From Owenia fusiformis (lineage: Eukaryota; Annelida; Polychaeta; Sabellida; Oweniidae): 64,000 nt of DNA. Positions within the stretch are counted from its first letter, which is position 1, and every line of letters begins with the position of its first letter. Where the stretch lies: positions 15,174,822 through 15,238,821 of the forward strand of contig CAIIXF020000008.1 in assembly GCA_903813345.2 (NCBI GenBank), read 5' to 3'. The translations under genes were made by a program, and so were the position numbers. The notes beneath the pieces are model-generated. The model was not told the origin of the DNA. It searched no databases and was given only the letters and a program-made list of their open reading frames with translations. Shown piece after piece: positions 16,203 through 63,993 of the stretch.

Positions 16203-19200
16203 TTATGCACTTATTGCATTAGGTACAATACTTGGCAAGAGTATTGAATATGTGTTGTCTCTTGTCTTGTTTTTCTCTTTCATTTCTTCCTCAATCTCAG
16301 CTAGCTCTTTGCGAAAACTAAAACAGATGTTTCAATACTCTGATACTCAAAACAAAAACAATTAAACTTAGACTTTTAATTTTTGTTACAACAGTGGGTA
16401 TGTGACTCACACATTTACTCCCTCCAAAATGTTTGGACCACTTTTTAAGCTAGTTTATATTTCTCGATTTGATCAAGATCATAACCTGTTGTAAGTGAGG
16501 AATAAAGTAAAGGTCAAACATTAATTGGGTTTGACACACTATCCAATATTGGAAAGTTCTGTTGCCAAATCTTACGGAGGGGTGTATGTCATACTACATA
16601 TGATTAAATTTCAATACCACTTTTTCATAATGTTTTACCTTTCTAATGCGTTCACTGAGATTGGGTCGTAGTTGAACTGAACCTCAAAGTATCCTAGTGG
16701 GTTCAATCCAGTTCTGCTCAAGAAGTCAGCTAAAAATGCAACGTCTAATACTCGTGTTTTGCTTATCAGGGCGTTTACAAGATCCTGCTCATTTCTTGCT
16801 CTCTAGAAAGTATATGGTACATACTGTATTATACTTTAAGACCTACAGGGTGGGCCAATAAAGATGGCCACATGGAAAGTTCACGGAACGATAGGGTGGG
16901 CAAATAAAGATGGCCACATGGAAAATTCACGGACCGATATGATATACAGTATATATAGTTTGGCCAAACAATAAAATTATGTCAAAGCATGTGCGTATAC
17001 CTTATCTCTTGGAGGGAGGCCTTCCAAATAACTTGGATAGTTTGGTGGATATGCAAATTCATCGTACTGAGAGTAATTCACTGCAGCATGTTGTACACTT
17101 GCTTGAAATACTAATGGTGTCACAATGGCACAGATGTCATCAACTGATGTCAGCTTTTCAGGAAGGCCCTGTGAAACAAATACTTTCGTAAACTTGCGAA
17201 TTTCATTAAAAGTTTGCATTTATTTATAAGATTTCAAAATATTATATTGAAAAACATAAGAATCTAGCTTATACTATACACATAACTAATCCTTCAAGGA
17301 TTCAGGCTGGACTTCAAAGATTAAGACTGGGCCTTATCCTTACAGAAGTCTAAACTTACATTTAATCCAGGTCCTTCTGGTGGTGACATGAGCTCTTGCA
17401 GCCAGTTGTGAACCTCATAATCATCCACAAGTTTTTCAGGAGAATCATAAATCCCTGTAAGAACACTCCTGATGTATTTCTCAATGGCTCTATACAATAA
17501 CATAGCATCATCCCTGTAGTGGTAGTTGGGCAAAGCATTCTCGTCATCTACCTAAAAGCACAAAGCAACCGTGGTAGTCAATTATATCCACGATCTTTTG
17601 TTTGGGTCATCATTGGCTCATACTATAGCACAGGAGCAACAATTTGACAAGTTTTAAGCTTTGGAAATTTCGTGATACTAATACTTTTAAATAATAATTA
17701 AACCTTTACTCTCCTTTATCCCAATCTTAATATTTTGACATTTCAAATTATTGTAAAATTATTCCTTATTAAAGGAAGTTGAAGCGACTCTGGTCGAAGG
17801 CAATCTTCCATCAAAAGTATGCCAAAAAGACACACTTAGAAAAAATATTTAATAGTAATACCAAACGTTGGAACATTGATACATACTCCTCTATCTTGTA
17901 GATCATTTGGTAAAGTTCCCTCAACATTCAGTCTCCATTTAGGCCAGATACGGCTGTTTATTGTGATGAAACCACGAGATCCTGAAGTCAGGTTCTTATC
18001 CATCTCAGACATTAGTCCGGGAATGCCACCTCTGATTATGATATTACAAATCAATTTTCATTCATCATTTGGCATACAATATGCTATATATCTATTCTGT
18101 AACTTATACACGGGGGTAAAGCAGACCCGATGATGCAATGAGCTTGCTCGGCGGTATCATGACTGTGTAACGTGTCTTAATGTATCAGTGTGCTCGGAGG
18201 TAGGTTCAAACAACGCGGATCCTCAAAGCATGTGCTCGTGGTATATTCGTGTTTTAACACCCGTGTTATATCCAGAACAAATGTTTATTTGATATATTAA
18301 TTGTCAACTTTTAATTGGTTCTTTACACTTTAGAAACTAAGAACCTATTCCTTCAGTCAATCTCTCACATTATTATATCGCTGCCTGTCAATCGTATATC
18401 ATTTGTTAAAACCGGTTCACGTGTCATGTTTTATGAGCCGATATTCGCTAGCCGTGAACATATATACTGATACTCGTTCTGCTTTCAACTAGAAATATGA
18501 AAGAAGCTAATATAGAATGCCATGCTTTCTCATGATGGCGCAAATAGTACAAACACTAATAAAAATAGTAAATAAAATACTCACGTATTTATATTCATCA
18601 CGTACAAGAAATGGTTACATAATAGACGGTACAGAGGGTGACTTGGAGACAACTGGCGATTGGTTGCTATGCAAACATACTCCATTAAAATATGAGTGGT
18701 CCCTAAAAAAGATGGAGTTCTATTTATATGAGTTATCAACAGTAAGATGTGTTTGTATGTGGGGGAGGGGCAATGTTTTTTAGTCTGAACCATCCCCACT
18801 AGTGTAACATATTAAAACGCGTGTCATAAACAATGCACCTTTTATGTTTGCGATAAAAAAGCTTTGTATGCTTCTGATCCCAAGCAGTATATTTCACTGA
18901 ATGTTTATTAAATCGAAAATTAAGGTTTAACAATGCATTAACATGCAAAATGTCACCTGCCATTTGTTACAGACGCCAACCGCCGAACACGGATCGTCGA
19001 AAGCCGACCACCATCCACAAAAAGTTGGATACTATATTAATATGTTACCATTTCTGGTGGTGACATAAAAACTAATCTGAAGCCATCCGTCTTCACATCT
19101 CAAGTCATCGATCGTATTTAATATTAGAAGTGTAGCTTAGAATGCTTATGTGATACGTATCTCGGGTATGGCGTATTGTTAAGATGGTCCCTACCTAGAT

Positions 19201-22200
19201 GAGCTATAGACTGATGGTAGTTACCATCTGCGTTGTTGAACCACATTTTGGCCAACAACCAAGTGTATTCAGGGTCAGATGGCAAGAAAACCTGCAATGT
19301 GAAGAACAATGTACAAATATAAATGAGATACAGGTATGTATAGAAATATTAATATCAAATCAAAACCAGCTTGATGTTACAAGAAAATCTAGAAAATAAA
19401 GGTATTGTAATTTATTCTCCAACAACGATAATATGCGACGATCTGGCTTTTTGGGCGCCACGCTATATTTGGAATTCATCGTACCCTTACAGTCACATAT
19501 GACATGTTTTGTATGGTTATAAAACATAACTACTCAAAAATGAGAGATTAATGATAAATAAAAGATTACAAGTATAAACAAGATAATTGGCAAAAGTGCA
19601 TTTGAAAGACTTACTGGATTATTTTCTGAGGGGGTCTGTTCTAGCTGGATGGCAATTGGTAACAATTTTCCTCTGCTATTTACATAAAACAACCCAAGGG
19701 GTGCACATAACTAGAGGACATACAAAGAGATCAATAGCGTTAGTTAAGAATATGGGATTGTATGAAAAAATGGCATAATAAAATTTAAAATGGCAGATAC
19801 AGTAAACGGTATCATGTATGACAAGTTTAAATGTGATATAAGAAACATTGAAATATGTGATTGTGACATCTCTGTCTAGAAACTGTGAAAATGGATACTC
19901 TTTGGGTTCTCCTTTTCGCACTTAATTATGCTTAAATATTGGGCTTATACATACGATAATAATAACGTCATACATATCTGTCATCGTTTTGCATAACACG
20001 ATCAAGAATCTCGTAGTCTACGATGTAGATTTTCTTGTTGCTAAGGCACTCTTCTAGAGTGTGTCCCTCAAGAAAAGGTTCGACAATTTCTGCTGTAACT
20101 GCGAACCTGAAACGTCAAAATGACACAATATCAGTTAGGTTTTTGTTGTAGAAGGAAGAACAGACTTTGCGAAATTTACAATTGTATGCTACCAGGAATA
20201 TTTTTCACTTTGATGTGTTGACAATAGTAAAGTGGGATCTGTAGGTAAACTGTTCACAATAAGTGGAATAACAATAGTGCACATTCTAACCTTATGTTTA
20301 TTAGATTTCAACGATATTAATACAATGGATATCTTACTTGTCTGGTATTTGTTGACATAGTCGTATGACAGAAGGGTTACATCCTTTCAGTCTCTGTGCC
20401 CCAAATGATTCATCTTCCGTCCACCCATGCATTCCCTGTCAATATTTATGCAAATCTGTCAATAAGATCAATATACATGTATCAGTAATTCTCAGCAAAA
20501 AAAGCAACTTTCAAAAAATGTTCTGTAGTGCCGTATCATAGTCTAGAAGTAAATGAACCACATTTTCTTAACGGGAATGTTTTAAGCATAGCCATGCCAT
20601 ATTGATAATGATCATCTCCAATGCTGAGATTTTTATTGTCTTAGTCTTACCTCTGGAATCCTAAACAGTGCGCCGTATATATTTTTCAGATCATCTAAGC
20701 AACTGAACTTTCCAACCATTATATCAAGCAGTTTCGAGGAAAGTTTAGCTTTCACTATATCCATTTTCATACCCCACTGAAATAGAATGAATTAATAAAA
20801 TATGATATAAGCAGAGTTAGTATAGAACTCTTTATTTCATTTTTAATACTAACACCACTGTGAACACGTTACAAAAAAAACAGTAAATCATCCATTTGAA
20901 ATCATTTGGAGGGCATCATCAAATTAGAAGTCATTCATAGTTAATTTTACACATTGACGATCTTCATGAATATTGTCACATTGGCAATATTCATGAAGAT
21001 CGTCAACGTAACAAAAGCTTCTTTCTAGTTCTCTATCTTGTTCTCTAGTATAAATAATTCATTTTCAAGTGACATCTATCAATTGTACCAATAGTTATAG
21101 ACAAGCGAAATACGACGGGTCTTGTCATTAACGGCGTAAAAAGTAATTTTTAACGGCGTAAAAAATAATTTTTAACGGCGTAAAAAGTAATTTTTAACGG
21201 CGTAAACAATCGTTTTTACGGCGTTAAATATTATTTTTGACGCCGTTCAAATTGAATTTTAACGGCGTACAAAATCGTTTTTAACGGCGTAAAAGTAATT
21301 CTTTACGACGTATAAAATCGTTTTTACGGCGTTAAAAGTATGACGATACATTGGTCCAGATGGCCAGCCATAAAAGCGAGGGACTAAATATGTAAACTGC
21401 GTCTTCGTTAATATACCAAACATAGAACCGCGTGCATATTCTCAAACTAAACTATCTTCCTTAACTTTGAGCCAAATTATTGTCCACAACTTGACTTATA
21501 AGTGGTGTAAAATCGAGAAATAAAAATATCTTACCGAAAACGAAGCCCGGAAGTTCTTCCATCTTGCTACGCTGACGTATCGTCAGCGTAACTAGGTGAG
21601 TACCAGTGATAGTTCGAAAATAGTCATAATTCAAGATAGTTAACCATCTAAAATTGTTTGTGATAACCTACATTCCATTGTCAAACCTGAGACATTACCT
21701 CAAAGTCCTTTGTAAAAAGTTCATTCACTGGCAACTGTTTTATCTAAAACAAAACATAACATTTTGTAACCATGAATGTAAACAAAACCAAGATGTAAAG
21801 AATTCTTGCACAAAGTGTCAGCAAAATTATCTCCGAGAAGTGTATCACTCTACTATACCTAACCCCTAGAAATGCATAAGATATTCTGTTTGTCTAAGTG
21901 TATTGTTTGTTATATTTTTGAAGGTACCTTATTAACATCTAACAGCCATCCGATAAACCATTCATAAGGAACAGACACATAAAACAAATAGCATAATCAT
22001 TACTGATAAGCCAAATGGGTTGCTCATGAACACCAAATGCGAGGTATAGTAGAGTGACATGTAAAAAGGTAGAAGGATAGATTGGACATGGTGCTCATAA
22101 GAGAGTTCTAAATGTTTCTTTCCAAATAAGAACCAATACAATGATGTATTCTGGACTGCCAGTGACAGTTATTAATATTCAATGCGAAAAACTGGGTTCG

Positions 22201-24793
22201 AATAAAATTCCAAAACGTTCACAGTTTCTTGCTCTTCATGGTTCATCTCAACGCGATGAAATGTAATATTAACATCAACATAAGAATAACAAGTAAAATT
22301 AACATGTGGTAACACTGTCAATTTACGACGTAAGATTGACATGAAAGTCGAAATCCAACATATATTTAAATATTTTTCGTGATGTTAAACTACAACATCT
22401 AATGTTTTCATATAGATATATAGTTTATATTTAAGAATATTACAAACTCATTTTTCAAAAACAAAATTCAAATTGGTTAAAGTAACTACATTTCGAGGCT
22501 TTAAACTCACTTTAACATTTAGCATAAAAATCGTTCCATAGGTGGGGGAATTTTTGCTAAAATACCTGTGCAAGTCCTCCTTCCAATTTCACTTTAAACT
22601 GATATTCAGTTTGTTTTGTTGCCAGTTCTTGCTTTCGTTGTTCAATCGCAGGGTCTTGTTGTGGTAGTAATGAGTCATATTCCTGGAGTTTGATGGAAAA
22701 GCCTGCTGGAACCCACCGATGTATGGGAAATACACTCCGGTCCTTGTCCTTGAACCTCTCAATCACAATTTTCTCAACATACCTTGCAAAAGTAAAAATC
22801 TCTTCCACTGATACTTGCAAAATCAATATTATCAACATACATTACAAAAAAAATCTCAATATACACCACAACGAAATAATCATTTTCTCAACATACATCG
22901 CAACAAAATAATCATTTTCTCAACAAACATCGCAACAAAATAATAATTTTCTCAACATTCATCGCAACAAAACAATCATTTTCTCAACATACATCGCAAC
23001 AAATCATTTTTCAACATACAAGTCGCAACAAAATAAAAAGTTCTCGTCATACATTGGAAAAGAAATATTCTCAACATACATCTCAAAAAGGTATTACATG
23101 CAAAATGTCACAACCTGTCATTTGTTTGAACTTTTATTATTCTCATTCAAAGGCAAGTACAAATCATTAAATGACTACCATGTAACTCTTTAAACTCTGA
23201 CTGTGCTCAAAATATTTAATTGGTACTTACCAACTATCCTTGCTGTTTGTCTTATCTCTCCAAAGGTCAAGCTGTGTGATGTGTTTGAAATCAGGACAGT
23301 TTTCCAATGGAAACGTATCTGTTTGTCCCAACTCAAAAGAATCCTTCCAACGATCATGAAGCTTAAGATCACTGGACCGTTTTCCATCTTCATCAGTCAA
23401 TGCGATATAAACCTGGAATTATTGGGTATTCATTGCGTGCTTTCGATTATTAGTATATAAATAAATGTCAATAATACCGCGTGACACCAAAAATCCCACC
23501 CACTCACATAATGTTGCATAACTTTTTTTGCCGGAAAAAATTCTGACTTATTTTTGGCACATTGAAACTAGCATCCATGGTGCAACCCCACAAGAAGTTT
23601 TAGATGACTAGCTCAACTAGATGCACATTTATGAGTGGTACAAGATGTGTCATATATTACTTTGCAGGCACTTGGATTCTATTTATGTATTCAGTATCCA
23701 CCTTTTGTAACATAATATTGGAAATAAGTTATAATGATTTTATCTATGACATCTATATCATTTTGTGTTTAATTGAATGGACTTCATTTCTCTGAATGTT
23801 AAAGCAAAAATCATTAGTATTTACAAAGTTATGTTACAAAAGGTAGGTGTTAGAATCCAGGTGTGCCTTCAAAAGAATAGACGATATTTAGTGCAAATCT
23901 TGAAACGCTCATAAAAGTGCATCTAGTTGGGCTAGTCATCTGAAACTTCTTGTGGAGCTTCTCTATGTGCCCAGATGTCATAGAGACAAAACAGTTATTC
24001 AAAATTATGTGGGTGGCATTTTTGTGTCACTCTGTATATAACACATGGAATTAACAAGGTTCATTTTCAAAATAATCTTAATTTCACGGCAGGTAGGTTA
24101 TGAATTTGTAACCGTTGTTTATTTGTGTGGTTTTTGAAATTCGTATATTAGATCTATGCATGATCATGTGGACTTCGAGGATAGACAGCAGCTCTCTGTA
24201 CGTGAAATCATCGATTGTGCTGTTCAATATTAATAGGAGCATATTAATACAATATCTTTAAATTCAACACACATCGCTTAATATTTCAGAAATAATGCTG
24301 ATGTTTGAACATTCAATATCAAGAACTTCTAGGTACTTTTACGTGTATTCATGCCTCTGATTATAATCATAAAGAAGGAATTAACATGCAAAATGTCACC
24401 ACGTGCCATTTGTTAGAGACGCCGATCACCGAACGCCGAACACCAACCGCCGAGCAACATCCATAAAAAAAGTTGGAGAGACTATTAAAATATGTCACCA
24501 CTTGTGGTGGTGTTATAAAAACAATAGATCTTTATCGACAGGCCTTAAAGACAGTAAATGAGCATTTAAAAAACAGTACAAATATTTTACGTATGTTTAA
24601 AAAACAGTACAAATAGTTTACGTGTATCTAAAAACAGTACAATAATTTTACATATATTTAAAAACAGTACAAATATTTTACGTATATTTAAAAACAGTAC
24701 AAATATTTTACATACATTGCCATCAGTTCCTGCTCCCTTCTTATCCCCAGTCTTTACAAAGACATCATAATCACGTGAGCCGCCCTGTCCCAT
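16203..24793 (-). CDS. Lipoxygenase LOX-A, complete (15 exons, 657 aa)
   Basis: Predicted iron-dependent dioxygenase that converts polyunsaturated fatty acids to hydroperoxides. Exons: 24793-24716, 23412-23231, 22782-22566, 21743-21699, 20776-20651, 20435-20338, 20106-19974, 19710-19615, 19291-19195, 18702-18585, 18031-17887, 17551-17360, 17168-17001, 16802-16639, 16317-16203. All introns are GT-AG, phases agree, and the stop is TAA. A PLAT domain fills about residues 8-105; the catalytic domain follows. Iron ligands seen: His351 and His356 (HQSIAH), His536 and Asn540 (QHAAVN), plus the C-terminal carboxylate, here Ala657 where the family normally has Ile. The INTxA stereocontrol position reads Gly399, and the next segment is three residues shorter than in LOX-B. 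The start MGQGGS fits an N-myristoylation consensus. It is the most downstream gene of the tandem cluster. Positional specificity cannot be assigned. Confidence 0.92.
16848..16952. repeat. Tandem approx. 57-bp repeat in LOX-A intron 13
   Basis: Two copies of a unit, gggtgg(g)c(c)aataaagatggccacatgg plus ttcacgga(a/c)cgata, stand head to tail. The paralogous LOX-C intron (60,722-60,826) has the same doublet, so it predates that duplication. The leading cagggtgggcc resembles the terminus of mariner-like elements, but no inverted partner is visible. Confidence 0.6.
18107..18275. mobile_element. LOX-A-specific insert with inverted termini (intron 10)
   Basis: It is absent from the otherwise near-identical LOX-C intron, where ctgtaacttccggaacaaatg is continuous. 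The insert starts near tatacacgggggtaaa and ends near tttaacacccgtgttata, imperfect inverse copies of each other. The exact boundaries and target duplication are ambiguous by a few bases. It is a probable MITE. Confidence 0.6.
18951..19066. mobile_element. TGTCACCAC-family MITE, LOX-A intron 9
   Basis: It begins tgtcacctgccatttgttacag, continues through the ccaaccgccgaacacg core and the gttggatactata block, and ends ggtggtgaca. The same insertion, with the same diagnostic changes such as aatcgtcgaaagc, sits in the homologous intron of LOX-C (63,653-63,767) and, truncated, of LOX-B (48,262-48,349). It therefore predates the duplications that made all three genes. Confidence 0.75.
20954..21006. 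repeat. Perfect 22-bp hairpin in LOX-A intron 4
   Basis: ttgacgatcttcatgaatat and the next two bases (20,954-20,975) are exactly inverse to 20,985-21,006, with a 9-nt loop. Such long perfect stems in AT-rich introns usually mark a small palindromic insertion. No paralogous comparison is available because LOX-C upstream exons lie outside the window. Confidence 0.75.
21125..21345. repeat. Minisatellite with units in both orientations, LOX-A intron 4
   Basis: About ten units of roughly 21-24 bp are built on taacggcgtaaaaagtaattt. The first part reads taacggcgtaaa, some later units read tttacggcgttaaa, then the first orientation returns. The array is therefore partly self-complementary. CpG-containing cores contrast with the AT-rich surroundings. 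Confidence 0.75.
22783..23095. repeat. Minisatellite derived from a LOX-A exon-3 splice boundary (intron 2)
   Basis: Units of about 30-33 bp read ttctcaacatac followed by atcgcaacaaaataatcatt. The first instance of ttctcaacatac belongs to exon 3 itself (its 5' edge at 22,782). The repeats therefore appear to have grown outward from the exon-intron junction, carrying near-copies of the exon's first codons. LOX-B's homologous junction (56,770) has no such array. Confidence 0.75.
24394..24513. mobile_element. TGTCACCAC-family MITE, LOX-A intron 1
   Basis: tgtcaccacgtgccatttgt leads into a run of ccgaacgccgaacaccaacc words, then gttggagagactat, and ends with the near-palindromic tgtcaccacttgtggtggtg. 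Start and end carry inverse TGTCACCAC/GTGGTG words. The distal gaca is degraded to gtta here. Confidence 0.7.
24560..24715. repeat. Minisatellite abutting the LOX-A exon 1 donor site
   Basis: About five units of roughly 31 bp read ttaaaaacagtacaaatatt plus ttacgtata. On the gene strand each unit gives tacgtaaaatatttgtactg. The array runs directly into the exon 1 donor at 24,715, where the transcript reads AAT then gtatgtaaaat. Repeat units thus resemble the authentic donor context. Confidence 0.75.
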
Positions 24794-49800: not shown

Positions 49801-52800
49801 AGAATAGGGGTTCTTAAACAGTACCTGGATTTGCTTTTTGTTGGCTCTACTGCTCAGGTGTCAGTTGAACCATGTTTGCAGGCCTATTTTAGAGTAGGTA
49901 TGCTTTTTGCCAAATCTTTTTTTCATAAGAGAGCTACTCAGCCCCCAGTCCAGTTCATTATGAAAGTCCTGTCATCTAACATAATGTAACAGAAAAAGAA
50001 TACTAAGCCAATTACACATCGATTGCCACACAGGAAGATAACTTGGCACAGTGCTAATTTTACCACCTATCAGAATGGTCATGATTGTTCAGTCATACAT
50101 GACAGTTACATAATGATCTAGGTACCATTTGATGGAGGACAAATAAGGCTTTTTGCTGTTACATTTGGATTTCAAAAAGATTGCTCAGGATTCTAGTAAT
50201 TTGGTTTTGAAGTTGGGTATACTTTTTTTGTGGACGCCCTGTATTAACATGAAAACCTTTATGGAACTACATGTCTAAGAATATGGAAGCCATGCAAAGC
50301 TATATATGGCTATGACAGAGACAACAAGGCATAAACATGCAAAATGTCACCACCTGCCATTTGCTACAGATGACAAACTCTGAACGTCTGGATTGAAATT
50401 TATGTCCGAAAGGTTATGTGTTTGATAAGGTTATGTGTAAGATGTACATCAAAACTGAATGAAGCTAAAAAATGATTATAACAAGAATCGTACATATCTG
50501 TCATCTGTTTTTGTGATATCATCCAGTATTTTGTAGTCTATGATGTAAATCTTCTTGGTATCTAAACACTCTTTAAGGGTCTGACCTTCAAGGAATGGTT
50601 CAACCATTTCAGGTGTGACTGAAAACCTGAAATAATAAAATCACTGAGACGGCATATGGCTCAAATAGAAGATACATATACACAGATACATATACATACA
50701 TATGGAGAAGACAGCACCCAACACAAGAGAGATTCACTTGGCATAACCCTTCTTATAAAATACAATGTCGCCTGGACTATTTTTTTGTCTCTAATTTTCT
50801 TGATGATGTCACCGAAGCAGACATACTTACTGCACCTTCTCCAGACCACCTAGCAACAACTCTTACGCTACAAACAAAAGATTACAGAAAACAAGGACCA
50901 GGATTTTGGAAACTAAACACAAGCTTACTACAGGATAAAGAATACCAAGAATGCATCAAAAAACAAATAGAAGAAACAAGGAAAATGTTCAATGAAAAGG
51001 ATGACACTAGAGTTATATGGGATTTTTTGAAAATGGAAATAAGAAAAGCAAGCATAAAATTTTCTAAGAAAAGAGCAAAAGAAAGAAAAGATGAAGAAAA
51101 GAGACTACTTAAGCATGCTTTAGCTTTAGCACAAATTGAAGTTGACAGATTATCATCCCAGGAAAATATTAACAATTTGAACAGATTGAAACTAAAATTA
51201 GAAATGATTCAAGAGCACAAAACAAAAGGAAGTATAATACAGAGTAGAGCAAGGTGGTATGAAGAAGGGGAAAAATCATCGAAATACTTTTTTCACCTGG
51301 AAAAATCTAATTCTGTTAATAAAGTAATAACAAAGTTGAGAACGGCTAATGGGAATGAAATTACAGATCCAAGAGATATATTAACAGCCCAAAAAGAATT
51401 TTATCAAAATCTTTATACATCATCGTACATAGATAAAGATGAAAATATGATCAAACGTGTTACAAATGAGTTTCTAAATCAAGAAGATATACCAAAAATT
51501 AACAATGTTGACAAACTAGAATGTGAAAAGAAAATAAGTCTTGAGGAGTGTTATAAAATGTTGAAATCTTTCAAGAAAGGAAAATCCCCAGGGACAGATG
51601 GTCTTCCATCAGAGTTTTATTTACAATTTTGGGATGAACTTAAAAATGATATTGTTAACACATTTAATCATGCTTTAGTACAAGGAGAATTAAGTTCTAG
51701 TCAGAAAAGAGGTATTATAAGTTTAATTCCAAAAAAGTCAAAAGATCGTTATAATTTAGCAAACTGGAGGCCCATAACACTACTCAATTGTGATTATAAA
51801 CTGTTAACAAAAATTTTAGCACAGAGATTAAGAGGAATACTTCCAAAGATTATCAGCCCGGAACAAACAGGATACGTAATGAATAGATTTATTGGGACAA
51901 ATGTCAGGCTCATCAAAGACATTATGGATTACACAAATAACAATAATCAAAAAGGTCTTCTATTATTTTTAGACTTTCAAAAAGCTTTCGATTCTGTCGA
52001 ATGGAATTTTATTGAAAAAACATTGGAAGCCTTTGGATTTAGCAATATTTTCATTAATTTTTTTTCAAAGTATATATAAAAATTCAAACAGTTGTGTCAT
52101 TAATAATGGTGAGTCCTCTAGCTTTTTTAGAGTTCACAGAGGAGTAAGACAAGGCGACCCCCTGTCAGGATTACTTTTTATAATGGTCATTGAGATTCTC
52201 TGCCTTGCAGTGAAACGAAATACAAATGTTCAGGGTGTTACAATTCAAGATCAGGAAATAAAGGCATGTCAGTACACCGATGATGTTACAGTTATACTTA
52301 AGAATGAAGAATCTGTAACAGAAACAATGAAAATCTTAGAAAAATTCGAAGTTTGTTCTGGCCTTAAATTGAACAAAAATAAATCTGAGCTGATGTGGAT
52401 AGGAAATGCAAAAAACAAAAATGATAGTATCAATGACTTAAAAACAGTTAAACAAGCTAAAGCCCTTGGATATTGTTTTACATATAATGAACAAATTCAC
52501 ATCAAAAATAACATTTTAGATAAAATACAAGTGATGAAGTCAAAACTTAATACATGGAATGGAAGAGATCTAAGTATAAAAGGCAGAATTCTTTTAGTCA
52601 AATCTATTGGTATATCCCAGCTTACTTACATTTCAGCAACTTCAGTGATTCCAGAGAAATATATTAAGGAAATTGATGATGTTATTCTAAAATTTATTTG
52701 GAGGAATAAACCTCCTAAAATCAAGAAGAAAACTTTAATTGGAAATATTTGTGATGGAGGGCTAAAAATGGTTGAATTCAAGCTCATGGATCAAGCCCTA

Positions 52801-55800
52801 AAAGCAGCATGGGTAAAAAGACTGACCAACAAAGAGGCAGGGCTGTGGAAAACCATACCCAACATAATGTTTGCTAATTTTGGAACCAACATCATATTTG
52901 AATCAAATTATGATTATAAATCATTAGACTTATCAAATGTTTCAACCTTTTATCAAGAAATCTTAAAAACATGGAGTATAATTATAGACCAAAAAGTACC
53001 AACTGACAAAGCAAGTGTCAAAGAGCAAATAATTTGGAATAACAGGAACATCCTGATAGGAAATAAACCAGTTTTTTACAAACAGTGGAATGCAAAGTCC
53101 ATTAATAAAATAAAACATCTCGTCGATATGAATGGTCAGTTTATTGAGAAAAATGAAATAGAACAATCATATAAGTTAAAGATAAAAGATATGGAATACA
53201 ACAGCATAAAAATGGCAATACCAATAAAATGGAAAGATATTTTAAGAAAACCAAGTGATTCAAATAATGCAAGTAGTGAGCAAAAGTCGGTGTCTGTTGA
53301 GAATGTAACATGTAAAAAGGCATATGCAATATTAAATCAGAGAGAATTCGAAGCACCCACCTCTTTGTTTAAAATAAAACAATTCATAGATGAGCAGGAG
53401 ATAAAATGGTATTTTCTACTGGCAAACAAAGTTACAAAGGACTCAAATATTCAAATTTTTCAATTCAAAATTCTACACAATACTTTAGTGTGTCAAGATA
53501 AACTATTTAAAATGAATATAGCAGATACAAATCTTTGTCCATATTGTCAACAAAGACACACAATCAAACATATGTTAGTTGATTGCATTAAAGCTCAATT
53601 ACTGTGGAAAGAATTTACAACTCTTATGGTAAGTGATAAGAAAATTAAACTAAGTGACAAAGATATATTATATGGCCATCAACCTAAGGATGATGAATTT
53701 AATGTTTTAAATTTAGCTATTATTTTGATGAAACATTATATATACAGAAGTTTTATTGATAAGATAGATGTAACCTTTGTTGGATTTAAAATATATTTTA
53801 AAGATTATATTACAAAATCAACATTTTTAAGGGAAATTATAAATTACAAGAAATAAATAAAATATTATAAGATTTAACTATATGTAGGTACTGTTCAGTA
53901 AAATTTGGGTGAATGTGTGAATGAGTGAAAATGAATGGCAGAATGAATGAGGTATGAATGCTAAATTGTTTTGCTTCTGTTCATACCACACATATAACAC
54001 AAAACAAATAAATCTGTTACAAATAATACAACTATATATGTACTGGATCACCTAATGATACAAAATACTATTTAAGTTAACATTCTAAGGTGCATACTTT
54101 TTCAGATTACAATATGTTTTAACAATAATTGAATGTATGATGTGAACAAAAATGAAATAAATTGTGAAAAGGAAAAAAAATATATATATACACAGATACA
54201 ATATAATAGATAATAATCTAAAAAACAAACATTAGTACTTGTAAAACAGGATACAATGCCTTTTTGAAAATTGATTTCATTGTGATGTTATTATTAGATT
54301 CCTTACTTGTCTGGTATTTGTTGACATAGATGTATGACAGCTGGGTTGCATCCTTTCAGTTTTTGTGCCCCAAATGCCTCATCGTCTTTCCAGGTATGCA
54401 TACCCTAAATGTGTATGTGGAAGTGACACCATATAAAGAAAATATTAAGCAAAAATACCCATCAAGCCTGAAAGTTTCTCTTTAACTTTTTTATATGGTA
54501 AGATGGTACCATGATTTTTAATAACCTTAAACATTTTGTACCAATTATTTTACATGTATTTTGATTACTTTTTGAAAAAATAACAATTTCTTTTTTGTGT
54601 ATAAGCCACTCTATAGTGATGATAATGGGAGAGAAATAACATATTAAAATTCTGAGCTTAGTTTGTTTATCTGTTTTCAAATTATCATGACGTCAAATCA
54701 ATAATCAGACTTTATACAAAACAGATTAAAAAAAGTCTTAGCACAAAAAACTATCTTTAATACCCAAACTACATGTACATGTATAACTGAAAATTATATG
54801 AAAACATTCATCTGGAATCCTAAACAAAGAACCATAGATATCAATCTACATGTATAAATAAATGAAAATAACCTACATCTGGAATCCTAAACAAAGCACC
54901 ATATATATCCTTCAGGTCATCTAAGCACTCAAACTCTCCCACTATTAGATCCAGTACTTCTGAAGATAGTTTCGCTTTAGCAAGGACAGCCATTAAATTC
55001 CACTAAAATTGGAAATTTATTATGCCAAATATTATTTTGGTTTATTACTTAGTAAAAGAAGAATCAGAAATGGAGAGTACATTTTTAATGCTTTTTTAGA
55101 TCTTAAAAATGCTTTTTGCCATAGATATGTTTTGCTTACCTAACATAAATGTAAAAATTATAAAAATATTTAAAATAATATATTATGATATACATTATGC
55201 TATACATTTTGTACATCATTTTGATTTATCAGAAAAAGAGAGTACATTTTAAATGCTTTTTACCAGATGTTATGCTTACCTGATATTAAAAAAACAGGGT
55301 GGTCCAAAAAAGTGAACCCCTGCAATTGGCTATATTTCCCTTATTACATGCAGGAATCCTTTCATATTTACATGTTGTAGAGGAAGGTCTAAAATTTTAG
55401 ATGGTACCATATATTTTTGTAGTCTTGAAATTTGCAGAAATTATAAGCCCTATCCAAACAGCACTGAAAATCGATAAAATGTGAACATTTGCGATTCTTC
55501 AACCCTTCAACAGTCTTCGTGTAGAAATTGTTTTAGCCGCAGTCTGAGAAACCTAATGTTTTCTGACTTTGTCTGGATTTGAAACCTGCACATTATGGTG
55601 TAAAAATTAGCACCCCGCCTCCGTCAGTTAACAATTTCCATGCATCACATTTGTAAAGTTTTGTACAATATCTAATTTTAGGCATGTTTTTGAAAGTCTT
55701 GTAATTTCTTCAAAATTCAAGACTGCAAATAAATTATGGCATCAACAAAAATGTTAGACCTTTCTCTACAAATGTGATGATACGATCCAATCATGTATTA

Positions 55801-58339
55801 AGGAAAATATAGCCTTTTGCAGGAGTTCATTTTTTGGACCACCCTGTACATAAAAGATATTCAAATTAATACACTTTTAGACTGTTCTGTTTGATTACTT
55901 TTAGATACTGTAGATTTGAGAATCAAACATTACCTCATATTCTTTTGTGAACATTTCATCCACTGGAATATCTTTTATCTAAAAGTACAAAATACCGATT
56001 TTAATTGTCCATTTTATCATACTTCAAAAACTCATCGCCAACAGGCACAATCACTACATTCCTAGGACAGGTCCAAAGCTTGATGAAGCAAGAAGGCATA
56101 AACCATTACTATTGACTGGAGTATATGCATGACAGCAAAAATTGACTTCCAAGGCTAATAGGATTTGCCAAGGGGGGTTCACTTCATGGAAAATTCCCAA
56201 ATCACTTAAAAAATGCTTAGAATGGTGAAAACTGCATGTTTTTGAAAGAATTTTTGTCCAGGGGGAGGGTTGCTAAAGCCCATCGAACGTTCTGGCTACG
56301 GGCATGGGGTTCAATAATGGGTCCAAATAAAACAAGACCAATAAGTCTTGCTTCTGGTCCGAAGAGTAACATTTAAAAATAACTTCAGCTTAATAAAAGA
56401 GCACTGATTTTTGCTGAAAATCACCATTCTCAAAAATACAGTTACAATACAAAGTCTGTGTAAAGTGTAAAGAGACTTTATTGACACCCTGTGGTTCGAT
56501 GTTGACCTATCAATTATTGAATTTCAATAGAAGTAAAAATATTGCTAAAATACCTGCGCTGGCCCCCCTTCCAAGTTCACTTTAAACTGATATTCAATCT
56601 GCTTAGCTTCAAGTTCTCGCTTTCGTTGTTCAAGTTCTGTGTCATGCTGTGGTAACAAAGAGTCATATTCCTTTAGTTTAATGGAAAAGCCTGCTGGAAC
56701 CCACCGATGTATGGGAAATATTGTTTGGTCCTTGTCTTTACATCGCTCAACTACAATTTTCTCAACATACCTGGAAAAAGCATTGTGATAAATAGCAATT
56801 GAATGATTATGCGTTTTGTTTTTAAAAAGAAGATTTAGAAAGATCTTTTTTAAAAAGATCGTTTTTATTTTAGATCCTTTTCATGAATATGTAAACACAC
56901 AAGTGCAAAAAGGGAAAAGACCAATTTACAAAATACAGCAAGAAAAAAAGAAGCAATGTAAAAATATAAGTTCTTGAAAAATATAAAAGGACAAGGATGT
57001 GATTCGAAGCATCACATTTGTTCAGAATTAAATAAACTTTTTTTTGTTTATACCATCTTCAGTCGTGAATCTGAGTGCTGAATAATGGAGTTTCACTTGA
57101 ATGGGACAGCAACTGTGGCCACTTACCAGGTATCATTACTATCTGTCTTATCCCTCCAAATGTCAAGCTGTGTAATATGCTTAAAACCTGAAGAGTTTCC
57201 AACTGAAAATGTATCAGTATGTCCTAACTCAAAGTCATCCTTCAATATCTTATCAAGTTTAAAATCACTGGATCGTTTCCCATTTTCATCGGTCAATGCG
57301 ATATAAACCTGGAACATGAATAGAGTTAGTTGATGGTTCAGGGAAACATTTTTGAAAAAATTGCTATACCTACCCATGTTATTTTTTGGTGCAAAATTAA
57401 GTATGAAGGAATCTGTGTTTTTCCTTGTTTTTTTCAGTTAAGTATCATTACATTGCCTTCTTTTAGTAAAACTGGTAAGCGTTCTATGGAAACTCGAGGG
57501 AATGCCGATATTTCAAGAAAATGGGTACCTTTTCCAAATTTCTTCTCAAAGTTTCTCAAGAACACTAGATTGCTTACAAATCATTTCTAACCCACTAAAC
57601 ATAAGATGCAACAAGGATGCTTTCCAGAGAAAATAAGGATATAAATCATAACTTATTTTGTACCACAAAATAACATGTGTTACCCTTTGCATTCGTTTGA
57701 CTACACTTCTTAAAAGAGAGCTTCGTCTTAACTAGACTCTGCACGCAGGGTAAACATGTGTAGGTTTAGCAATTTTCAAAAATGTTTTCTTGAACATGTG
57801 CATTAGCAACCTAAAGCAAACAGTATATATGTGGAATAAGCACATTTTTAAATGTGAAGCATACACAGACAAGGCATAAACATGCAAAATATCACCACCT
57901 GCCATTTGTTACATATGTCAACCGCCGAACACTAACCGCCGTACACCACACACTGACCACCGAACAGTCCACAAAAAGTTGAAGACAATAACTTACAATG
58001 TTCCAACCAAGTTTAACATATTCTGCCCAAGTATTCAAAACACCATTGGAAAGGTGGGAGTGGCAGTTTTATAGATCTGACCTACTAGTTTGACTATACA
58101 GGAAATTAACAAGTAGACTAATAAGAATTGTAGATAGCAACTAGAGACTACATGTAGACAGACTATTGATCTTGATCCACTGTTCAAATCTTAGAAAATC
58201 TTCAAGTGTGAATTAAGTCACAAAACAAATACCTTGAAAATCTAAAATAATTTTCACTCACATTTCCATCCGTGCCTGCTCCCTTTTTATCTCCAGTCTT
58301 AACAGAGACATCATAATCATTTGAGTTGCACTGGCCCAT
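28880..58339 (-). CDS. Lipoxygenase LOX-B, complete (15 exons over 29 kb, 660 aa)
   Basis: Same fold, predicted activity and exon plan as LOX-A. Exons: 58339-58262, 57308-57127, 56770-56554, 55978-55934, 55002-54877, 54404-54307, 50626-50494, 49119-49024, 48565-48469, 47904-47787, 32259-32106, 31855-31664, 31052-30885, 29612-29449, 28994-28880. Every exon length equals LOX-A except exon 11, which is 9 nt longer; total 1,983 nt, stop TAA, frame intact. Iron ligands are His351, His356, His539 and Asn543, and the C-terminal residue is Val660. The stereocontrol position is Ala399, followed by Leu where many relatives have Arg. The N-terminus MGQCNS fits myristoylation and adds a nearby cysteine. 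Intron 6 carries a LINE, and intron 10 is about 15.5 kb of nested transposons. The coding sequence shows no damage despite these insertions, so selection is probably maintaining it. Confidence 0.92.
29760..30540. repeat. Long-unit tandem repeat in LOX-B intron 13, splitting a MITE
   Basis: About five degenerate units of 150-190 bp carry tcagatttgaacttctgaga, a cttgtagatgattttgaaaa segment and gaccttgagaaggtcattga. The array lies between the two halves of a TGTCACCAC-family MITE (start at 29,739-29,760, remainder 30,552-30,658), which suggests expansion inside or insertion into that element. Confidence 0.75.
32724..39244. mobile_element. 6.5-kb foldback element nested in the palindromic element
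   Basis: Ends are ggttaccatagaaacagtat and the exact inverse, atactgtttctatggtaacc. Arms of roughly 1.6-1.9 kb pair outside-in: 32,724-33,180 with 38,800-39,244, then 34,060-34,340 with 37,360-37,900, where the gggcagatatag/ctatatctgccc words lie. Similarity decays inward. ATAT flanks both sides (32,720-32,723 and 39,245-39,248). The intact opposite arm of the host element near 44,480 shows the empty site (taacttatatagac). No recognisable transposase. Confidence 0.8.
41487..41825 (-). pseudogene. Decayed ORF in the spacer of the palindromic element
   Basis: One minus-strand frame stays open for about 110 codons with a single internal stop (at about 41,653-41,655). It has protein-like composition, for example [20 protein letters not shown] and later [21 protein letters not shown] do not recognise the family. 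Its place at the centre of the inverted arms suggests the remains of the element's own gene. Confidence 0.4.
43053..43536. mobile_element. One-ended mariner-like fragment in the right arm
   Basis: The right end reads cggtcctgttttttggacaccctg, the terminus of the 15,188/59,061 family, followed by TA. The opposite arm of the host palindrome (about 40,170-40,215) lacks the insert, so it was added to one arm only. The left terminus is missing and the left boundary is approximate. Confidence 0.6.
44949..47600. mobile_element. 2.65-kb element with CACT...AGTG inverted termini
   Basis: Inverted arms of about 330 bp start cactctcccatgtagaccgt (44,949) and end acggtctacatgggagagtg (47,600). They continue inward through cgtgatgacat and agtgaaatcggttt words to about 45,282 and 47,268. 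ATTA stands immediately outside both ends, a candidate 4-bp (or TTA 3-bp) target duplication. The interior has short plus-strand frames at 45,392-45,601, 46,070-46,282 and 46,257-46,475 that I cannot assign. CACTA- or Harbinger-type affinity is possible but unproven. Confidence 0.75.
48044..48165. mobile_element. TGTCACCAC-family MITE, LOX-B intron 9
   Basis: It runs from tgtcaccacatgccatttgt to tgtcaccacttgtgttggtgaca, with the gccgaacccc/gaacaccgtcc core. It lies about 100 bp from the older truncated family copy at 48,262-48,349 that all three LOX genes share. LOX-A and LOX-C lack this one, so it inserted after LOX-B diverged. Confidence 0.65.
48262..48349. mobile_element. TGTCACCAC-family MITE, ancestral truncated copy in LOX-B intron 9
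   Basis: It keeps the right part only: aaccgctgaacacgaatcgt, then gttggatactataac and tgtcaccatttctggtggtgaca. The sequence following it (agccatcc.tcttcacatc) also matches LOX-A and LOX-C downstream of their copies, establishing position-by-position homology of the intron. Confidence 0.65.
49264..50241. mobile_element. Tc1/mariner-like non-autonomous element, LOX-B intron 7
   Basis: Terminal inverted repeats of about 40 bp: cagggtgtccacaaaaaaag at the left, continuing tatacccaacttcaaa, and the inverse tttgaagttgggtatac, ending tttttttgtggacgccctg at the right. TA flanks both ends (49,262-49,263 and 50,242-50,243). 978 bp without a recognisable transposase. Confidence 0.8.
50345..50390. mobile_element. 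TGTCACCAC-family MITE, truncated copy in LOX-B intron 7
   Basis: Only the left part remains: tgtcaccacctgccatttgc, then tacagatgacaaactctg. It breaks off before the gttggagac block, and the preceding aaggcataaacatgcaaaa matches other copies. Confidence 0.55.
50676..54200 (+). mobile_element. 5'-truncated L1/Tx1-type LINE with 15-bp target duplication (LOX-B intron 6)
   Basis: atatacacagataca occurs at 50,676-50,690 and 54,186-54,200, bracketing about 3.5 kb of LINE sequence in opposite orientation to LOX-B. Coding begins inside the C-terminal part of an APE-type endonuclease, so the element is truncated at the 5' end, typical of abortive target-primed reverse transcription. The 3' end is an A-rich tract (ggaaaaaaaatatatat) just before the second duplication. 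The perfect duplication argues for a fairly young insertion. Confidence 0.9.
50698..53856 (+). pseudogene. LINE ORF2 fragment: endonuclease end, reverse transcriptase, Cys/His tail
   Basis: The frame opens with the endonuclease tail ([20 protein letters not shown], then [12 protein letters not shown]) and the [12 protein letters not shown] linker. Reverse transcriptase blocks follow: [28 protein letters not shown], motif [27 protein letters not shown], and the catalytic YTDD at about 52,271-52,285. A C-terminal [17 protein letters not shown] knuckle is typical of L1/Tx1 ORF2. Coding shifts frame in a run of eight T (52,058-52,065): the upstream frame ends at 52,079 while the homologous continuation is in the next frame. 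It stops at 53,856. Not a functional gene as read; the shift could be real or a homopolymer error. Confidence 0.9.
55295..55846. mobile_element. Mariner-like non-autonomous element, LOX-B intron 4
   Basis: Inverted termini: cagggtggtccaaaaaagtg followed by aacccctgca, and the inverse tgcaggagttcattttttgg followed by accaccctg. They extend through ggctatatttccctta and its inverse. TA follows the right end; the left flank is an A run, so the target duplication is not clean. 552 bp, no open frame of note. Confidence 0.75.
57890..57990. mobile_element. TGTCACCAC-family MITE, LOX-B intron 1
   Basis: It starts atcaccacctgccatttgtt after aaggcataaacatgcaaaat. An expanded accgccgaacactaaccgcc-type core follows, then gtccacaaaaagttgaagac. 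The distal palindromic arm is missing. A family copy also sits in LOX-A intron 1 (24,394), but internal differences leave it unclear whether the two are homologous insertions. Confidence 0.6.
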
Positions 58340-58831: not shown

Positions 58832-59060
58832 AAAATTTAAAGATCTTTACAATCTAGCTGTTTAGTAACGCCTGAATATCCTAAAACCTTTCTGATCTGA
58901 ACATCTTGATCTTATCTGCACGCTTTTTGGTTCAAATCTTGTAACATGCATCTCCCATTGATTCACATATTAAGAAACATTGTTATTTAAACATCTACTA
59001 ATCGGAACATATTTTCCCAGTCCACGTGTGTTTAGATTAAAGAAGTTTTACTGCATAGTA

Positions 59061-59757
59061 CAGGGTGTCCAAAAAACAGGACCGTAAGAAAGTTGAATAA
59101 TTTGGTCAATTTTGCATATTTTGCCTTGAAATTTTAGAATTATTTAGTTCATTCAATGCGAATTTTGTTCTGAAAGTTTGATGATAATCTGTAGGCCTAC
59201 ATTGTTTCAAAAACTACAGTACCTTACAAAACATGCTCAAAGTGGGCACTTCTCCTCTTATGCACAAATGAATCCTGCAAACAAAATTGTTAATGACCCT
59301 GACCTATACACATCAAAGTGGATGGTACATATTGGGGTACTTATTCACATTGCCCTCTTAAGATTTTAGGGGCCTGTCAGTATACACATTGGCTTTGAGA
59401 AATCCCTAAATATAAAAATCTGAGGGATTTAGATCTGGCGAATGAGCTGCTCATATGGTTTGCGTTCTGCGACTGATGAGCTGACCACATAAGCATTGCC
59501 CAAACCATTTCAGTATATCATTTGCAGTGTTGGGGTGGTATTGGCTTGTTGAAACCACTCCTAAGATGCCCCTCAGAAAGAAGCCGGATTGAATCATGCA
59601 TAGAGAGGGGTGTAGATTTGGGCATGTTTTGTAAGGAAGTGTAGTTTTTGAGTCAATTGGCAGATTACGTATTATCAAACGTTCACAACAAAATTCACAT
59701 TGAAATAATTATGCAAAATTGTCAACTTTCTTACGGTCCTGTTTTTTGGACACCCTG
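59061..59757 (-). mobile_element. Mariner/Tc1-like deletion derivative (copy 2)
   Basis: Paralogue of 15,188-15,869 with termini cagggtgtccaaaaaacagg and its inverse. It carries about 165 bp (59,225-59,390) that copy 1 lacks, and it lacks the transposase SPDLNPPDF block and other interior sequence that copy 1 keeps. TA precedes the left end; the right flank reads tta. A minus-strand transposase frame (59,451-59,678) overlaps the same region. Confidence 0.75.
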
Positions 59758-60065
59758 TTATATGTACTTATCTTCATTATGCACCAGTTGCATTAGTTAC
59801 AATACTTAACCAGACTTCACATAGCTTTTTTAATTTTTAATGAACTATATTTTCATTAGTTTAGTTGGAGTTAGTTAGAATCATAATCATTGGGCACTAA
59901 TTGCGTTAGAGGCCATACTATATCAGTTTATATACTTTATACGTGCAAAACATTATTTATTAATAAACTGCATAAGTTACAATACTTTGTTAGAATTTAT
60001 ATAGGTATAGTAGTCGAAGAGAAGTGAGTCTATATACATTTTTATGTAAATACTTATTATAGTCT

Positions 60066-63000
60066 TTACGCACTTATTGCATTAGGTACAATACTTGGCA
60101 AGAGTATTGAATATGTGTTGTCTCTTGTCTTGTTTTTCTCTTTCATTTCTTCCTCAATCTCAGCTAGCTCTTTGCGGAAACTAAAACAGATGTTTCAATA
60201 CTCTGATACTCAAAACAAAAACAATTAAACTTAGACTTTTAATTTTTTGTTACAACAGTGGGTATGTGACTCACACATTTACTCCCTCCAAAATGTTGTA
60301 ACTTTTGGACCACTTTTTAAGCTAGTTTATATTTCTCGATTTAATCAATATCATAACCTGTTGAAAGTGAGGAATGAAGTAAAGTTCAAACATTAATTGG
60401 GTTTGACACACTATCCAATATTGGAAAGTTCTGTTGCCAAATCTTACGGAGAGGTGTATATGCCATACTATGTATGACTAAATTTCAATACCACTTTTTC
60501 ATAATGTTTTACCTTTCCAATGCTTTCACTGAGATTGGGTCGTAGTTGTACTGAACCTCAAAGTATCCTAGTGAGTTCAGTCCAGTTCTGCTCAAGAATA
60601 AGTCAGCTAGAAATGCAACGTCTAATACTCGTGTTTTGCTTATCAGGGCGTTTACAAGATCCTGCTCATTTCTTGCTCTCTAGAAAGTATATGGTACATA
60701 CTGTATTATACTTTAAGACCTACAGGGTGGGCCAATAAAGATGGCCGCATGGAAAGTTCACGGAACGATAGGGTGGGCCAATAAAGATGGTCACATGGAA
60801 AGTTCACGGACCGATATGATATACAGTATAGTTTTGGCCAAACGATAAAATTATGTCAAAGCATGTGCGTATACCTTATCTCTGGGAGGGAGGCCTTCCA
60901 AATAAGTTGGATAGTTTGGTGGATATGCAAATTCATCGTACTGTGAGTAATTCACTGCAGCATGTTGTACGCTTGCTTGAAATACTAATGGTGTCACAAT
61001 GGCACAGATGGCATCAACTGAAGTCAGCTTTTCAGGAAGGCCCTGTGAAACAATTACTTTCGTAAAATTGCGAATTTCATTAAAAGTTTGCATTTATTTA
61101 TAAGATTTCAAAATATTATATCGAAAAACATAAGAATCTAGCTTATCCCATACATATAACTTATCCTTCAAGGATTCAGGCTGGACTTCAAAAATTAAGA
61201 CTGGGCCTTGTTCTTACAGAAGTCTAAACTTACATTTAATCCAGGTCCTTCTGGTGGTGACCTGAGCTCTTGCAGCCAGTTGTGAACCTCATAATCATCC
61301 ACAAGTTTTTCAGGAGAATCATAAATCCCTGTAAGAACTCTCCTGATGTATTTCTCAATGGCTCTATACAATAACATAGCATCATCCCTGTAGTGGTAGT
61401 TGGGCAAAGCATTCTCGTCATCTACCTAAAAAGCACATAGCAACCGTGGTAATCAATCATATCCACGATCTTTTGTTTGGTTCATCATTGGCTCATACTA
61501 TAGCACAGGAGCAACAATTTGACAAGTGTTAAGCTTTAGGACATTTCGTGATACCATACTTTTAAATCATACTCCTTTATCCCAATCTTGATATCTTGAA
61601 TGGCGATAAAACATTTTAAATTATTGTAAAAGTATCCCTTATTTAAGGAAGTTAAAGCGACTCTGGTTGAAGGCAATCTTCCATCAAAAGTATGCCAAAA
61701 AGACACACTTAGAAAAAATATTTAATAGTAATACCCAACGTTTGAACATTGATACATACTCCTCTATCTTGTAGATCATTTGGTAAAGTTCCCTCAACAT
61801 TCAGTCTCCATTTAGGCCAGATACGGCTGTTTATTGTGATGAAACCATGAGATCCTAAAGTCAGGTTCTTATCCATCTCAGACATTAGTCCGGGAATGCC
61901 ACCTCTGATTATGATATTGTAAATCAATTTTCATTCATCATTTGGCATACAATATGCAATATATCTATTCTGTAACTTCCGGAACAAATGTTTATTTTGA
62001 TATATTAATAATTATCAACTTTTAATTGGTTTTTTACACTTTACCCTACTATCACACCAAACTAGTTCTCACTACGTTCTCGAAAACGGGCTTAAACTGT
62101 GCACGAACGGATTTGACGTACTAAGAACCCACTAAGAACCGTTTGGGATTTGTTTACAAACTTCATGAAACTACTAGAACGAGTAGGTCCTCCAGAACTT
62201 AGAGCATGCTCAAAATTTTCTGGTGAACGTCAAAACGTTGCCGAATCGGTTTTAAACTGTGTGCGAACTGAATGAACGTAACTTCAACGTACGGTCTGTT
62301 TACGAACTTCATGGACTTTCCCGGACGGGGAATCACGCGGTACAAACTTCGACCGTTAATTTGAATTTTTGACCTACCAGATGCTTGAAAATCAAGGATT
62401 GCGAGTCTCATACTGCACCGTTTTTCTTCAAACTTATACCATTAAAAGCAAAACAAAATTGCCTTTCTGTCGGAGCATTACTTTATTGTAAAGAGTCCCT
62501 CGTTCAAGCAGCGTTTTGGTCCCCAGCTGTTAGAAGGCCTTCTTACAGCTGGGGACCAAAATGCCGCTGGAAGTAGGGACTCTGTTTAAGAGAATAATGT
62601 ACCATTAGAAAGGGATTTTTGTGATGCTTTGAATGGAACAAGTTTGAAGAAAAACGGTGCAGTATGAGACTCGTAATCCTTGATTTTCAAACATCCGGTA
62701 GGTCAAAAATGCAAATTAACGGTCGAAGTTTGTACCGCGTGGGAATGTGATTTAGAATTTTGAATCGATTCAAAATTCGATGGCGACCATACCGTTCTGT
62801 AATCAGGTCATGATGACCTTCTAGACTAAGGGACGGTTTATACTACGTTGCACACCGACGTGGTGCGACCTGAACGAACTGCGAATGAGATGAACGTATT
62901 GAAGACTGTTTATGAACGAAGTAGCTAATTATTTTAGACATATATCCCGACCGCAGCCAGATTGAGCCCGTTTTACGACATTTTCGTAGGACTGCCAAGA

Positions 63001-63993
63001 ACGGGTAAGAACTAGTTTCCAACTGATAGGGGGTTAGGTACTAAAAACCTATTCCTTCAGTCAATCTCCCACATTATTATATCGCTGCCTCTCAATCGTA
63101 TATCATTTGTTAAAACCGGTTCACGTGTCATGAATTATCAGCCGATATTTTTTAGCCGTGAACATATATTCTGATATTCTTTCTGCATTCAACTAGAAAT
63201 ATGAAAGAAGCTAATATAGAATGCCATGCTTTCTCATGATGGCGCAAATAGTACAAACACTAATAAAAATAGTAAATAAAATACTCACGTATTTACATTC
63301 ATGACGTACAAGAAATGGTTACATAATAGACGGTATACAGGGTGACTTGGAGACAACTGGCGATTGGTTGCTATGCAAACATACTCCATTAAAATATGAG
63401 TTGATCCTAAAAAAGATGGAGTTCTATTTATATGAGTTATCGACAGTAAGATGTGTTTGCATGTGGGGGGGGCAATTTTTTTTAGTCTGAATCCTCCCCA
63501 CTAGTGTAACATATTAAAACGCGTGTCATAAACAATGTACCTTTTATGTTTGCGATAAAAAAGCTTTGTATGCTTCTGATCCCAAGCAGTATATTTCACT
63601 GGATGTTTATTAAATCGAAAATTAAGGTTTAACAATGCATTAACATGCAAAATGTCACCTGCCATTTGTTACAGGCGCCAACCGCCGAACACGAATCGTC
63701 GAAAGCCGACCACCATCCACAAAAAGTTGGATACTATATTAATATGTTACCATTTCTGGTGGTGACATAAAACTATATTGAAAGCCACCCATCTTCACAT
63801 CACAAGTGATAGACCTAATTTAATACTAGAAGTATAGCTTAGAATGCTTATGTGATACGTATCTCGGGTATGGCGTATTGTTCAGATGGTGCCTACCTAG
63901 ATGAGCTATAGACTGATGGTAGTTACAATCTGCGTTGTTGAACCACATTTTGGCCAACAACCAAGTGTATTCAGGGTCAGATGGCAAGAAAAC
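60066..63993 (-). CDS. Lipoxygenase LOX-C, partial (exons 9-15; 5' half beyond the window)
   Basis: Exons: 63993-63897, 63406-63289, 61904-61760, 61425-61234, 61042-60875, 60679-60513, 60180-60066. They are numbered by homology; the phases match LOX-A and LOX-B and no stop interrupts them. The two-histidine motif (HQSIAH), the QHAAVN motif and the C-terminal Ala of LOX-A are all present, as are Gly at the INTxA position and the three-residue-shorter segment after it. Exon 14 has one additional Leu codon relative to LOX-A. The PLAT domain and N-terminus are not visible because they lie to the right of position 64,000. Nearly identical to LOX-A in exons and introns, so assembly duplication must be excluded, although copy-specific insertions argue for two real loci. 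Confidence 0.88.
62044..63033. mobile_element. TTA-flanked MITE (Harbinger-like), copy 2, carrying a nested foldback
   Basis: It starts ccctactatcacaccaaact, as in copy 1 at 26,730, and ends aagaactagtttccaactgataggggg. TTA flanks it at 62,041-62,043 and 63,034-63,036. The LOX-A intron retains the empty site, ttacactttagaaactaaga (near 18,325). Subtracting the nested insert leaves about 577 bp, comparable to the 525 bp of copy 1. Confidence 0.85.
62334..62741. mobile_element. 408-bp foldback nested inside the MITE
   Basis: Long inverse arms run from cacgcggtacaaacttcgac to gtcgaagtttgtaccgcgtg. They pair to a centre near 62,535 where ttggtccccagctgt faces acagctggggaccaa. GGAAT flanks both sides (62,329-62,333 and 62,742-62,746). 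Transcribed, it would form one long hairpin. Confidence 0.8.
63653..63767. mobile_element. TGTCACCAC-family MITE, LOX-C intron 9
   Basis: tgtcacctgccatttgttac, ccaaccgccgaacacgaatc, gttggatactatatt and ggtggtgaca appear in order, almost identical to the LOX-A copy at 18,951-19,066 at the same intron position. Confidence 0.75.

Follow-up and report, generated by a model that had tools for sequence, protein, structure and literature searches.

Lipoxygenases (LOXs) of both R and S type are known in animals. Coral R-LOXs with a glycine at the stereocontrol (Coffa) switch position are already known (PMC3925239), and the rule by which Ala or Gly at this position steers oxygenation is set out, with its mechanism, in PMC13059375 and also in PMC5437038. 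The model presented in PMC13059375 ties the switch to the position of oxygenation as well as to chirality, such that a 12S enzyme is paired with an 8R enzyme rather than with a 12R enzyme. Exceptions are described from bony fish, where zebrafish LOX1 and other LOXs carry Gly at the switch and produce mainly 12S-HETE (PMC11593649, PMC10531496); in these rule-breaking enzymes, replacing the Gly with Ala raised the 12S share, and replacing the Arg just before the Gly with Ile raised the 8R share, as reported in PMC10531496. In the human 17p13.1 cluster, ALOX15B is placed at 8.04 Mb and ALOX12B at 8.07 Mb by PMC12993299, and the products of the cluster's enzymes are described in PMC8150372.

The window analyzed here (the whole stretch of DNA, 64 kb in length) carries on its minus strand at least three head-to-tail PLAT-lipoxygenase genes, transcribed in the order LOX-C, LOX-B, LOX-A (Table 1). 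Three sets of LOX-like exons were located by tblastn using a human 5-LOX sequence as the query, and exon boundaries were set by hand at GT-AG sites, guided by comparison of LOX-A with LOX-B. GT-AG sites are present for all 34 introns, and the three models contain neither internal stops nor frameshifts. The same search gave extra matches at 7188-7259 (plus strand, E 2.4) and 39151-39062 (minus strand, E 0.66), both at chance level.

Table 1. Positions of the LOX genes and of the features around the switch codon, numbered from the first letter of the window
Feature	Position	Strand	Description	Basis
LOX-A	16203..24793	-	657 aa from 15 coding exons; PLAT and lipoxygenase domains	GT-AG exon model, Pfam
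LOX-A exon 11	17887..18031	-	145 bp, switch segment at its start	
LOX-A invariant Leu, switch+4	18013..18015	-		
LOX-A switch codon	18025..18027	-	GGC = Gly	
LOX-A exon 10	18585..18702	-	ends ...NINT, donor GTGAGT	
LOX-B	28880..58339	-	15 coding exons, 660 aa	exon model, Pfam
LOX-B exon 11	32106..32259	-	154 bp, switch segment at its start	
LOX-B switch codon	32253..32255	-	GCC = Ala	
LOX-B exon 10	47787..47904	-	ends ...GINT, donor GTTAGT	
LOX-C	60066..63993	-	exons 9-15 only, gene cut by window end	exon model
LOX-C exon 11	61760..61904	-	145 bp	
LOX-C switch codon	61898..61900	-	GGC = Gly	
LOX-C exon 10	63289..63406	-	ends ...NVNT, donor GTGAGT	

Several other features of the locus were recorded. 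Exon 14 of LOX-C (60513-60679) has one extra codon (Leu) relative to LOX-A and LOX-B. Intron 10 of LOX-B (32260-47786) has a length of about 15.5 kb, compared with 553 nt for LOX-A and 1384 nt for LOX-C; several of its stretches occur repeatedly in the window, and the tblastn search with 5-LOX found no clear further LOX exon within it. Within LOX-C intron 10, 62334-62741 is an inverted self-complementary stretch (86% over 408 bases) that resembles a small mobile element and has no counterpart in the LOX-A intron. LOX-B intron 6 contains a non-LTR-like retrotransposon remnant on the strand opposite to the gene (50631-53853, plus), with RVT_1 in two overlapping frames and a zf-RVT match. At 54780-54900, LOX-B exon 5 is followed shortly afterwards, within the intron, by a short direct repeat of its 3' end (CTTTGTTTAGGATTCCAGATG). 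Outside the LOX genes, 10225-10518 on the minus strand is a possible exon of a leucine-rich-repeat protein, with a single LRR_6 match slightly below the cut-off; the nearby open stretch at 12597-12923 gave no Pfam matches.

When LOX-A and LOX-B were scanned, PLAT (PF01477) and Lipoxygenase (PF00305) were found above the Pfam cut-offs in both, and the top solved-structure match of each is the coral 11R-LOX 3vf1 (E=1.6e-96 for LOX-A, 4.2e-104 for LOX-B). In the alignment, the His/His/His/Asn side-chain iron ligands are intact in all three copies, and the positions corresponding to Leu 368, 373, 414 and 607 of 5-LOX are occupied in each copy by three Leu and one Ile. The C-terminal carboxylate of LOXs is also an iron ligand, and is usually carried on Ile; the C-termini of the copies align in register, with Val as the last residue in LOX-B and Ala in LOX-A and LOX-C, not Ile. 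The genes form a tandem array of at least three animal PLAT-lipoxygenases, which are apparently functional. A scan of prokaryote genomes with two peptide patterns returned 38 stretches, one of which, from Aureispira, is a relative; a Pfam Lipoxygenase match is present in 5 of the 395 genomes sampled from the class of Aureispira, Aureispira included. These relatives are too remote to help interpret LOX-A, -B and -C.

The residues at the switch are encoded across the junction of exons 10 and 11. The intron splits a Thr codon: two of its bases close exon 10 (AC|GTGAGT in LOX-A and LOX-C, AC|GTTAGT in LOX-B), and the third opens exon 11, followed by GGT GGC in LOX-A and LOX-C or TCT GCC in LOX-B. 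The switch thus comes second among the complete codons of exon 11. The motifs given in the preliminary description (INTGG in LOX-A, VNTGG in LOX-C and INTSA in LOX-B) are therefore borne out across the intron. A MAFFT alignment of seven rows was made from LOX-A, -B and -C, 5-LOX, the coral 8R- and 11R-LOXs and the Aureispira LOX; in the 5-LOX row, residues 356-513 were verified against chain 3o8y. We take A410 of 5-LOX to be the switch position. The residue identified earlier does sit at the Coffa switch, aligning with A410 and with the Gly of the coral 8R- and 11R-LOXs, and phmmer likewise pairs the switch Gly of LOX-A with that of the 11R-LOX. The Leu four residues beyond the switch is conserved in all seven rows, the three copies included; a role for this invariant Leu, one helical turn past the switch, is described in PMC13059375. 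The residue directly after the switch is Ile or Leu in the window copies, as opposed to Arg or Lys in the reference LOXs. The Gly of LOX-A and LOX-C presupposes that the exon 11 acceptor is right; overall, we are fairly confident that the assignment of Ala to LOX-B and Gly to LOX-A and LOX-C is correct.

Exon 11 is also the site of the only difference in exon length between LOX-A and LOX-B: it is three codons (9 bases) shorter in LOX-A and LOX-C than in LOX-B, while the remaining 14 exons have the same lengths in LOX-A and LOX-B. The loss of three residues had been noted earlier and placed just after the switch; the loss stands, but its best position is five to seven residues beyond the switch, before a DK pair. 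To locate it, the gap was slid along the switch segment and scored against seven solved LOXs. The score peaks at +15 with the gap behind residue 9 of exon 11, at a distance of seven residues from the switch, and MAFFT gives the same placement; the phmmer match to 3vf1 has the gap behind residue 7, for which the scan gives -20. When three-residue deletions were simulated in the seven reference LOXs, this procedure came within two positions of the actual site for 76 of the 77 deletions. A gap before the Coffa site, which would have put another residue at the switch and which the preliminary description named as refuting its reading, scores -63 and one directly after the switch -64, and since the spacing to the invariant Leu would be lost as well, both placements were rejected.

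Between LOX-A and LOX-B, divergence is greatest in the segment around the switch. This segment is the lowest-identity ten-residue window of LOX-A against LOX-B over the whole protein, with one of ten residues identical, and across exons 9-15 none of 20000 permutations gave a window that low, a result that depends partly on where the gap is placed. The LOX-A and LOX-C version contains one Pro and three Gly. Attempts to establish its homology through peptide similarity failed, as many shuffles score equally well: 3030 of 20000 shuffles of the LOX-A segment did at least as well as its own best score, as did 1980 of the 33723 ten-residue pieces taken from the minus strand of the window. For the LOX-B segment, in contrast, 91 of 20000 shuffles did so, and in a leave-one-out test of the seven reference LOXs the number was 0 to 3 of 5000 for each. 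A segment that is both the most diverged and not LOX-like by itself means that an error in the splice call, or altered catalysis, has to be weighed.

INTGG is the natural reading at the LOX-A and LOX-C junction, yet it is not secured. If the start of exon 11 had been misread in these copies, through use of another acceptor or a small exon, INTGG would not be what the protein contains, and the switch might be occupied by another residue. The unusual peptide is in keeping with such a misreading, as is the weak pyrimidine tract of the two acceptors (0.53, with 6 of the 34 acceptors, these two included, at or below this value). However, phase and GT-AG are satisfied at exon 11 of both copies, and the next upstream AG lies 50 (LOX-A) or 58 (LOX-C) bases away, past an in-frame stop. 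The start of LOX-A exon 11 also shows a weak resemblance to LOX-B DNA (no more than 15 matching bases in 30, a level attained in 380 of 20000 shuffles). A 9-nt microexon common to LOX-A and LOX-C was rejected: the 553-nt LOX-A intron contains no AG-9nt-GT piece, and the eight candidates in LOX-C are without a LOX-A counterpart. Among single stop-free GT-AG pieces with lengths from 12 to 30 nt in multiples of three, one of 12 nt is identical in the two copies; as an exon it would place Ile at the switch, with Gly taking the position of the Leu, and it was rejected by inference. A tblastn search of the window with exon 11 of LOX-A and LOX-B found no second copy of the kind expected of mutually exclusive exons, as the three known sites were the sole matches with E below 1e-15 and the next best hit had E 0.12. 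We therefore regard a misread junction as unlikely.

The relationships among the copies provide a context for the shared Gly. LOX-A and LOX-C agree at 319 of 332 residues, against 523 of 657 (about 80%) for LOX-A and LOX-B and 280 of 332 for LOX-B and LOX-C, and the similarity of the first pair extends through introns and the 3' flank. Synonymous divergence (NG86 dS) is 0.06 between LOX-A and LOX-C and 0.47-0.64 for pairs with LOX-B, which identifies LOX-A and LOX-C as the recent pair. The earlier account of two nearly identical copies that both carry Gly thus holds, but its picture of neighboring duplicates that have switched is not supported: LOX-B lies between the members of the recent pair, which share the same switch state, and no direction of change is shown, as the reference LOXs include both Ala and Gly and the alignment cannot decide which came first. 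The Gly common to LOX-A and LOX-C most likely reflects a single event, in either direction. Selection on all three genes is purifying (NG86 dN/dS of 0.188 for LOX-A and LOX-B, 0.266, in a range of 0.24-0.27, for LOX-A and LOX-C, and 0.202 for LOX-B and LOX-C); over the 48 codons of exon 11 alone the ratio is higher, at 0.445 for LOX-A and LOX-B and 0.411 for LOX-B and LOX-C.

These data also bear on whether LOX-A and LOX-C might be LOX-fold enzymes with impaired or altered catalysis, which would make the chirality of the switch moot; such enzymes could be weak dioxygenases or hydroperoxide isomerases, or could have a non-oxygenating role. The presence of Pro and Gly around the switch within its segment, the three residues lost before DK, the C-terminal Ala and the concentration of LOX-A/LOX-B divergence in this one segment would all fit. 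On the other hand, both copies keep the four side-chain iron ligands, the complement of three Leu and one Ile at the checked positions and uninterrupted reading frames, and the pair has evolved under purifying selection. Altered catalysis, whichever of these forms it might take, accordingly seems improbable to us.

We therefore favor a reading in which the array encodes enzymes that differ in how they steer oxygen. The proposal builds on the observed exon models, side-chain ligands, Ala/Gly difference, invariant Leu and purifying selection; what we infer is how exon 11 is spliced, that the enzymes are catalytically active, and the product chemistry in its entirety. LOX-B, which keeps Ala at the O2-steering switch, would most likely form an S-hydroperoxide. 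In LOX-A and LOX-C, the Gly would most likely open the opposite end of the same pentadienyl radical to O2, so that more R-product forms, and at another carbon, as in an 8R/12S-type partnership. The mirror-image hydroperoxides envisaged in the preliminary description are not what the model in PMC13059375 predicts: because that model ties the switch to position, attack would shift to the far end of the pentadiene (the 12S/8R pairing), and the products would not be mirror images at one carbon. Nor can Gly be equated with R as a dependable rule, given the Gly-bearing fish LOXs that are reported to make mainly 12S products.

The fish enzymes raise the alternative that LOX-A and LOX-C, though they carry Gly, yield the same S-product as LOX-B. 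Bony fish LOX1/ALOX15 share the switch Gly with LOX-A and LOX-C and are described as mostly 12S, but theirs is an RG motif, and exchange of its Arg for Ile is reported to have raised the 8R share; LOX-A and LOX-C instead have Gly-Gly and are thus less like the fish exception. We consider a common S-product quite improbable. Classification of LOX-B as S-type and of LOX-A and LOX-C as R-type is plausible but unproven. That LOX-A and LOX-C give mainly R-product is a prediction we would put slightly short of an even chance, while the reading as a whole, of a tandem PLAT-LOX array in which Ala in LOX-B directs S-hydroperoxide formation and Gly in LOX-A and LOX-C gives more R-product at the other carbon, is one we judge moderately probable.

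If the products do differ as the switch rule predicts, paralogues about 80% identical within one array would constitute a natural experiment in the control of position and stereochemistry, and the three enzymes may make different signaling lipids. It would also be informative if LOX-A and LOX-C broke the rule, or had lost activity through the block of Pro, Gly and deletion. A more speculative idea, which we hold to be rather doubtful, is that the 5' end of exon 11 was remodeled at the intron boundary, either in the lineage of LOX-A and LOX-C or in LOX-B, while other parts of the protein were constrained. One short block would then hold the Ala/Gly difference, the Pro, the extra Gly and the three-residue change in length, and remodeling or sliding of a splice boundary would offer duplicated lipoxygenases a one-step route to a new position and stereochemistry of oxygenation.

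Among the papers listed in a literature search that drew mainly on openly accessible work, none was recognized as describing an invertebrate array of R- and S-lipoxygenases. Mixed clusters as such are already known from human 17p13.1, and LOX-A, -B and -C are ordinary paralogues with a testable substitution; what is distinctive is the compact difference between LOX-A/LOX-C and LOX-B that adjoins an intron. The coral 11R-LOX (3vf1) and the 8R-LOX domain of the coral AOS-LOX (2fnq) match the window copies over the PLAT and LOX regions, with the same side-chain iron ligands and, as in LOX-A and LOX-C, a switch Gly. They differ in having Arg after the switch, where the window copies have Ile or Leu; relative to them, LOX-A and LOX-C are three residues shorter near the switch and end in Ala, and LOX-B has Ala at the switch. 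The human ALOX cluster, as described, likewise brings S- and R-type genes close together (ALOX15B, 15S; ALOX12B, 12R; and ALOXE3), but its genes lie on both strands (PMC12993299), whereas the window copies run head-to-tail and include, in LOX-A and LOX-C, a recent pair.
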